A DNA stretch of 34,485 nucleotides from Treponema sp. Its GTDB lineage: Bacteria; Spirochaetota; Spirochaetia; Treponematales; Breznakiellaceae. The position numbers and the translations under genes were made by a program. A model generated the notes under the pieces. That model saw only the letters and a list, made by a program, of their open reading frames with translations. It ran no database searches and was not told the DNA's origin. Shown in pieces: positions 27,232 to 28,626 of the stretch (its first letter is position 1; each line of letters opens with the position of its first letter). The stretch spans positions 1 through 34,485 of the forward strand of contig JAIROG010000010.1 of NCBI GenBank assembly GCA_031257675.1, in the 5' to 3' direction.

Positions 27232-27515
27232 AACTGGCTGGCGCAATCCTTCGGCGCTGAACCGGAGAATTATGAAAAGCCCCGCCCTCCCGATCACTGC
27301 CGCCATTTGTATGAATAGCCATATTGTAACTATACGCCCTCAATAACGCTTTTGTCAATAGAAATGTAAAAAAATAACTTTCGACAACCAGTCTTTCTCC
27401 GCTTCCGCGTGTAACGGATCGCCTATGACAGACGTAATATAAAATTATCACACATGAATCAAAACAGCGTCCGAACCCTTTTTATCATATAGATTATTAC
27501 AAGGGGTCTGGTTTC

Positions 27516-28340
27516 ATGGAAGAGTTGAGCTTTTACATGCGCCTTTACAGGCAGGGAACGTTGGCAAAGAAAGATCTGGAAGCGATTGTTTTTCAATTTG
27601 TACTTAAAAATCCTCACCGCTTTTACCTGGCGGGACTGGGGAAAGAGCGTTGCGTTGATTATTTGTGCTGGCTGTATCCCAGGTTAAGCGCGGCGATTGA
27701 CGCTTACAAGGACACCGGCTCTTCTTTTGAAGCGTACCTCGCGTCGTTGCTTTTCTGGTCAGCGCATGAATTTTTTTCCAGTGAAAGGGAACATGCCGTT
27801 ACCGAGCGAGCTTGCTGGGAGGCGCGGGCTGGAGAAATTGTCTGTGAGGAGGAGCCAGAGTATTTGGCGGAAAAAGCGCGTCCATTCAGCAATAAAACCG
27901 GAAAGAAACTCAAGGCGAATGAAATTATGGTTTTATTGCTGAAATCATACTTTTTTGTATCGGAAGATTTTTTGGAACGCATAGCGCCTATTGCGGGTGT
28001 AAAGGCGGAGAAACTGATGATGATGATCGAAGATCTCAAGAAGAAACGGGAGCGGCACGATGAGGGCATACGCATGTTGAAAATAAGGATACATAGCCAG
28101 TACTACCGGTGCGTCACGTTTGAAGAACGCCTGCGGCTGCTGGACGATGACTCTCCCAATTACGAAAAAACGAAGGCTCTGCTGGAACGCGGGAGGAAGC
28201 GCCTCGCAAATATGAAAAAACGGCTGGCGGGATTGCGGGTTGATGCAAGCAACCGTCAGGTGGCGGAGATACTTTGCATTCCCAAAGGAACGGTGGACAG
28301 CATACTGTATGCGATAAAAAAGAAATTCGGCGTTACATAA
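27516..28340 (+). CDS. Sigma-factor-like protein of unknown role
   Basis: 274 residues, helical and charged. Residues about 42-92 (KERCVDYLCWLYPRLSAAIDAYKDTGSSFEAYLASLLFWSAHEFF) have the pattern of sigma-70 region 2, including a Y-x-x-x-G-S-F-x-x-Y-L stretch. The last 32 residues contain a region-4-like helix-turn-helix (SNRQVAEILCIPKGTVDSILYAIKKKF). The middle is variable, with a Lys/Glu/Met-rich helix (LMMMIEDLKKKRERHDEGIRM). I do not recognise a named family; it could be a divergent alternative sigma factor or another HTH regulator. AAGGGG lies nine bases before the ATG. It is transcribed alone, away from the Ig-repeat operon, and ends at a strong hairpin. Confidence 0.6.
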   Translation: MEELSFYMRLYRQGTLAKKDLEAIVFQFVLKNPHRFYLAGLGKERCVDYLCWLYPRLSAAIDAYKDTGSSFEAYLASLLFWSAHEFFSSEREHAVTERACWEARAGEIVCEEEPEYLAEKARPFSNKTGKKLKANEIMVLLLKSYFFVSEDFLERIAPIAGVKAEKLMMMIEDLKKKRERHDEGIRMLKIRIHSQYYRCVTFEERLRLLDDDSPNYEKTKALLERGRKRLANMKKRLAGLRVDASNRQVAEILCIPKGTVDSILYAIKKKFGVT

Positions 28341-28394: not shown

Positions 28395-28434
28395 CGCATT
28401 TTTGCAGCCTTTAGGCTGCAAAAATGCGGTTTTT
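28395..28434 (+). terminator. Rho-independent terminator after the sigma-like gene
   Basis: A perfect 15-bp stem (CGCATTTTTGCAGCC with its complement at 28414-28428), a TTTA loop, then GTTTTT. It lies 54 bases after the stop of the sigma-like gene and could work in both directions. Confidence 0.75.
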
Positions 28435-28440
28435 AAGGCG

Positions 28441-28474
28441 GTCTGTCCATAATGCGCCTTCATTATGGACAGAC
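28441..28474. repeat. Perfect 14-bp hairpin
   Basis: GTCTGTCCATAATG and its exact complement around a six-base loop, starting six bases after the first terminator. An AT-rich tail follows but no clean T run. Confidence 0.8.
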
Positions 28475-28494
28475 TCTATTTTATAGAAAGAATA

Positions 28495-28545
28495 GCGGAT
28501 TTGACGAATTTCTTGCGGAAATTCGTCAAATCCGCCGTTTTTTTT
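28495..28545 (+). terminator. Very strong terminator hairpin, 18-bp stem plus T8
   Basis: A perfect 18-bp stem (28495-28512 with 28518-28535), a five-base TTGCG loop, then CG and eight T. This is a textbook rho-independent terminator on the plus strand, but it is the second terminator-like element with no gene between them. Confidence 0.8.
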
Positions 28546-28553
28546 AGCGGAAC

Positions 28554-28581
28554 TTGTTCAATAACTGAAGTTATTGAACAA
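28554..28581. repeat. Perfect 12-bp hairpin
   Basis: TTGTTCAATAAC and GTTATTGAACAA around TGAA, ending 16 bases before the cmk -35 box. Its place next to the promoter makes an operator possible. Confidence 0.75.
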
Positions 28582-28597
28582 CTCCAGTAAAGAAACG

Positions 28598-28626
28598 TTG
28601 AAAACAAAACGGATTGGCATTATAAT
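28598..28626 (+). promoter_or_regulatory. Near-consensus promoter of the cytidylate-kinase-like gene
   Basis: TTGAAA, a 17-base spacer, then a perfect TATAAT at 28621-28626. The leader to the ATG at 28692 would be about 58 bases. Confidence 0.8.

Follow-up and report, generated by a model that had tools for sequence, protein, structure and literature searches.

The question raised by this locus is whether a protein that resembles sigma factors at both of its ends, and whose gene is transcribed divergently from an Ig-repeat surface-protein operon of Treponema sp., is itself a sigma factor, i.e. a subunit directing RNA polymerase to promoters, and, if so, of which kind. A first-pass annotation of the window, the whole stretch of 34,485 nucleotides that was analysed (contig JAIROG010000010.1), had proposed a divergent sigma factor or a new regulator family. 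The open reading frame is confirmed as a conserved gene, with relatives that are 46-92% identical and contain nearly no internal stops, and it is present in a single copy in the source genome, which may belong to a termite-gut lineage. Its parts, and the evidence for each, are:

27516..28340, plus strand: gene for the divergent sigma-like protein of 274 amino acids, member of a class-wide family (open reading frame list)
27567..27800, plus strand: sigma region 2-like domain, residues 18-95, D48YLCWLYPRL...Y64...F71EAY74L (HMM, profile-profile comparison, fold, conservation)
27915..28031, plus strand: middle helix-turn-helix (HTH)-like module, residues 134-172, LLLKSY..SDDFLERIA..G (profile-profile comparison, conservation, weak Sigma70_r3 matches)
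28032..28235, plus strand: basic helical hairpin, residues 173-240, with model helices 164-208 and 214-240 (model, conservation, composition)
28236..28331, plus strand: sigma region 4.2-like HTH, residues 241-272, SNRQVAEILCIPKGTVDS (HMM, profile-profile comparison, conservation)

Homologues were found by sequence search in 173 of 200 genomes of the source's family and by profile search in 288 of 394 genomes of its order. A more diverse family profile, which was applied to Spirochaetia genomes of at least 95% completeness, detected full-length relatives in 225 of 267 genomes and 94 of 100 genera. The members are 274 to 387 amino acids long, and most genomes carrying the family have one copy; some members of one genus (g15) possess up to four (genomes G052 and G053). 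The family is absent from a genus with genomes of 0.9-1.9 Mb (f7/g99), which is probably Borrelia, and from a 1.1 Mb genome of a second genus (g65), probably that of T. pallidum. Both possess rdgB, but with no member of the family adjacent to it; this argues for loss and against poor detection, so that the factor has probably been lost in these genome-reduced lineages. No relative was found in the viral collection searched, literature searches returned no description of the family, and no mapping onto the family was obtained for the T. denticola sigma loci named in PMC2965109. The family is also unrecognised by the curated databases Pfam and NCBIfam.

The NCBI sigma-70 model TIGR02937 matches the window protein over residues 56-270 (4e-5), with a score of 23.3 bits that fails its curated cut-off of 42.9 bits. 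The same model matches 25 of 27 family members (best 6.9e-8) and 29 of 34 in another set of diverse members (best 4.5e-9), and Sigma70_r4_2 matches 19 of the 27; for single curated models, every match to the family scores under the respective cut-off. Since an HTH alone could produce matches to sigma models, the N-terminal 125 residues were tested separately. These fragments were matched most commonly by TIGR02937 (8 of 33 members, best 5.5e-5) and Sigma70_r2 (5 of 33, best 1.5e-5). The N-terminus of the window protein itself is under detection in the same libraries, and its likeness to sigma factors becomes visible only through the family.

For profile-profile comparisons, 97 family members were aligned with 43 ECF or 71 mixed sigma sequences, and reversed profiles served as controls. 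The whole protein reached 95.6-97.0%, with 97.0% (E 1e-10) against all sigma sequences, the N-terminus alone 94.3-95.3% against the ECF and all-sigma profiles (reversed, 0.2-0.4%), and the C-terminus alone 95.3-95.6% (95.6% with ECF). Reversed controls mostly scored 0.2-2%, the short C-terminal piece up to 11-14% against reversed RpoD and FliA. With a shallow profile of three ECF sequences, region 2 was matched at just 1-6%, in the correct register, and deeper profiles resolved the match. When family profiles were searched against PDB sequences, the output was noise from coiled coils and generic HTHs, its weak matches including sigma HTHs; the N-terminal profile matched nothing. HTH families other than sigma factors, such as the LuxR type, are also matched by the C-terminal HTH taken alone.

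The full-length AlphaFold model, which was built from six close relatives only, is of low confidence (pLDDT 51) and was not used for a structure search, yet its helices agree with the layout derived from conservation. Residues 1-112 folded alone gave a better model (pLDDT 70, pTM 0.62), whose sole Foldseek match in the PDB was, weakly (E 3.3), S. aureus sigmaB in an RNA polymerase open complex. When seven chains were realigned, the best five were sigma region 2 or sigmaB, with Z-scores of 6.6-7.3 over 87-91 residues. These structural scores are each modest, and their weight rests on their agreement. Both end domains are homologous to sigma regions 2 and 4.2: the former is recovered by HMMs, profile-profile comparison and fold, also from the N-terminus alone, and the latter by sigma models and profile-profile comparison, with generic HTH families matching it too.

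Within region 2, residue 48 is acidic (D/E) in 90 of 97 members, F71 is kept in 86 and Y74 in 84 of the 97. The Q-E pair of region 2.2, which normally contacts core RNA polymerase, is found in none of the 97; in ordinary sigma factors these positions hold Q in 48 and E or D in 55 of 71 sequences, in the family they are hydrophobic or aromatic in almost every member. The D..QE motif of region 2.2 is typical of the sigma-70 superfamily, but not strictly defining, and loss of the Q-E pair alone does not exclude sigma identity. Region 2 is followed by a linker, residues 96-133, which varies across the family, and by the HTH-like module with a constant length of 39 amino acids. This module aligns weakly with both FliA region 3 (23.5%) and ECF region 4 (22.3%), and Sigma70_r3 gives weak matches in 4 of 34 members. 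The hairpin has a median length of 68 amino acids (5-95% range 67-72) and a lysine plus arginine content of 27-29%. A GreA-like acidic tip on the hairpin was considered and dropped, because acidic residues are only mildly enriched there (23% versus 13%). Conservation within the family peaks at the motif N-x-x-V/I-A-x-x-L-x-I-P-K-G-T-V-D-S, which is located in the terminal HTH.

ECF factors (group IV), in which a short linker connects sigma 2 to sigma 4 without further domains and which comprise about 190 amino acids in total, are the best profile-profile partners of the family (94-96%). Like E. coli sigmaE, with whose region 2 the N-terminal model aligns over 87-88 residues, the family combines a sigma 2 with a sigma 4.2 domain; however, around 150 residues lie between the two, the Q-E pair is missing and no adjacent anti-sigma gene was seen. 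The fixed-length module and the 68-residue basic hairpin between the sigma domains, together with the absent Q-E pair and a length of 274-387 amino acids, show that the protein is not an ordinary ECF factor. With the three-domain factors of group III (FliA/sigma28, sigmaB), the family may share a sigma 3-like middle HTH, aligned to EEIAKELGI of FliA, and the single Foldseek match, S. aureus sigmaB, belongs to this group; in contrast to group III, the family matches FliA and RpoD only weakly in region 2 (2-5%) and carries its hairpin inserted before region 4. The SigI model weakly matches the N-termini of 5 of 33 members (best 0.0043) and is outscored by the generic sigma model; whereas SigI factors combine region 2 with a special C-terminal domain, the family ends in an ordinary region 4.2-like HTH. 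The first-pass annotation was thus right about the region 2-like stretch (Sigma70_r2 and TIGR02937 matches of N-terminal fragments) and about the region 4-like HTH (GerE and Sigma70_r4_2 matches). Its view that the protein is neither a standard sigma-70 nor an ECF factor agrees with the missed curated cut-offs and the additional module and hairpin, and the proposed divergent sigma factor of an unrecognised family is supported as homology. The fold comparison and homologue search that it had suggested revealed neither an N-terminal fold unrelated to region 2 nor membership of a known non-sigma family. Its Lys/Met-rich helical middle is indeed predicted to be helical, but the composition is Lys/Arg-rich.

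The surroundings of the gene bear on what the protein might control. The following elements were located:

27329..27358, minus strand: canonical TTGACA-18-TATAGT promoter of the divergent Ig-repeat operon (sequence, conserved in relatives)
27424..27447, plus strand: degenerate TATGACA-NN-TGTCATA palindrome followed by an AT block (TATGACAGACGTAATATAAAATTA), conserved upstream, with the palindrome copy at 27424-27439
27456..27464, plus strand: GAATCAAAA element, which follows the palindrome and is conserved (many relatives have GAAnCAAAA)
28395..28535, plus strand: three consecutive terminator hairpins (28395-28428, 28440-28475, 28495-28535) between the gene and a kinase gene

In the source's family, the palindrome ATGACA-NN-TGTCAT is found about 60-100 bp 5' of the start codon, with at most two mismatches in 20 of 35 upstream regions versus 1% of shuffled sequences, and it is probably an operator or promoter element. 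It is also located upstream of the homologues L015-L032 and L247-L276. Exact copies elsewhere precede other genes, many of which encode exported proteins; within the same spirochaete family, these include genes for a recurrent secreted protein (MAAKS..GFD..F.YHFDRADRE), a SurA-like protein and an M48-like lipoprotein. The palindrome-bearing genes possibly form the regulon of a dimeric regulator. Just 5' of the start codon, six loci (L016, L017, L025, L252, L259 and L272) carry conserved CAAAA and CCGATA(T/A)AC elements around 21 nt apart, a pair that may be an unusual, possibly autoregulated promoter. A sigma28-type promoter based on the CCGATA element was rejected because its spacing is wrong.

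Across the class, rdgB (Ham1) lies directly downstream on the same strand at 55 of 75 loci, commonly with gaps of less than 60 bp or overlaps, and a gene for an nrnA-like DHH phosphoesterase directly upstream at 38 of 76; farther away, clpP, clpX and lon often occur on the upstream side and pepF or flagellin genes on the downstream side. In several genomes of the source's own family, rlmJ replaces rdgB. A recurring anti-sigma gene was not seen beside the family gene at the loci examined. In another family of the same order (f3), the nrnA-factor-rdgB cluster continues into flagellin and fliD genes in many genomes (for instance L132, L133, L134, L137, L161 and L162), and a conserved secreted protein of 130-190 amino acids without a Pfam match is encoded between lon/argF and nrnA (L134:4915-5337 and equivalents). 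The usual gene order is nrnA, factor, rdgB(-pepF), frequently preceded by clpP-clpX-lon. This setting suggests a function in housekeeping or stress, and not the control of a surface antigen.

The first-pass annotation had suggested that the factor could control the surface-protein gene beside it. It correctly noted strong terminators behind the gene, as all three hairpins are strong and have T-rich tails, and the downstream kinase gene has a promoter-like site of its own beyond them; in total, four inverted repeats, all perfect or nearly so and three of them terminator-like, follow one another at 28395-28600. The idea that the factor is a dedicated regulator of the adjoining Ig-repeat operon draws on the divergent arrangement, which is retained at L002, L003, L004 and L006. 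However, the homologue search found this neighbourhood to be limited to these nearest relatives, other neighbours occur elsewhere, and the Ig gene is preceded by a conserved canonical sigma-70 promoter, TTGACA-N17/18-TATA[CG]T, in all five genomes with the arrangement (N17 with TATACT, or N18 with TATAGT as in the window). Control of the surface-protein gene is thus unsupported, and a dedicated regulator of this kind is extremely improbable. It is also very unlikely that the protein binds DNA without any relationship to sigma factors and resembles them only through a generic HTH plus helices. The matches of the HTH to LuxR-type and other families and the PDB sequence searches, which singled out no sigma factors for the N-terminus, would fit this explanation, but it is already disfavoured by the N-terminus alone, which finds region 2 by two HMM libraries, by profile-profile comparison, where the reversed controls were clean, and by fold.

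The main rival is an accessory factor of sigma origin that has given up transcription initiation and acts as a regulator, either by binding the polymerase or by binding DNA with two HTHs joined by the basic hairpin. The exchange of the Q-E contact pair for hydrophobic or aromatic residues, the fixed lengths of the long hairpin and of the second HTH-like module, and the conserved recognition-helix motif KGTVDS are all consistent with such a protein; however, F71 and Y74 of region 2.3 are near-invariant, as in working sigma factors, and the overall conservation of region 2 matches what is expected of a domain that still works. We therefore consider an accessory factor unlikely. The homology, conservation, architecture and synteny established computationally argue for a strongly diverged member of the sigma-70 superfamily, near-universal in Spirochaetia and usually encoded by a single gene, which is probably an alternative sigma factor. 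Polymerase binding, promoter recognition and a role in stress or housekeeping are inferred. In such an alternative sigma factor, the N-terminal domain would dock onto the beta-prime clamp helices of RNA polymerase and open the -10 element by melting, and the C-terminal HTH would bind the -35 element and the beta flap. The sigma 3/4-like module and the basic hairpin, which take the place of the customary short linker, could lie along the polymerase channel or make contact with DNA, so that the factor would combine a modified polymerase contact with an inserted hairpin. More tentatively, the family might represent a separate, class-wide sigma lineage of spirochaetes with a hydrophobic polymerase surface in place of the Q-E pair, a basic hairpin in or beside the holoenzyme and a conserved, as yet undescribed regulon.

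A near-universal, class-wide transcription factor that has been missed by curated databases would alter the picture of which sigma factors spirochaetes possess, and the family makes it possible to test directly how strongly the contact of a sigma factor with the core enzyme can be modified. Furthermore, the gene seems to have been lost from lineages with reduced genomes (probably Borrelia and T. pallidum), and this would be relevant to how regulation became simpler in these bacteria.
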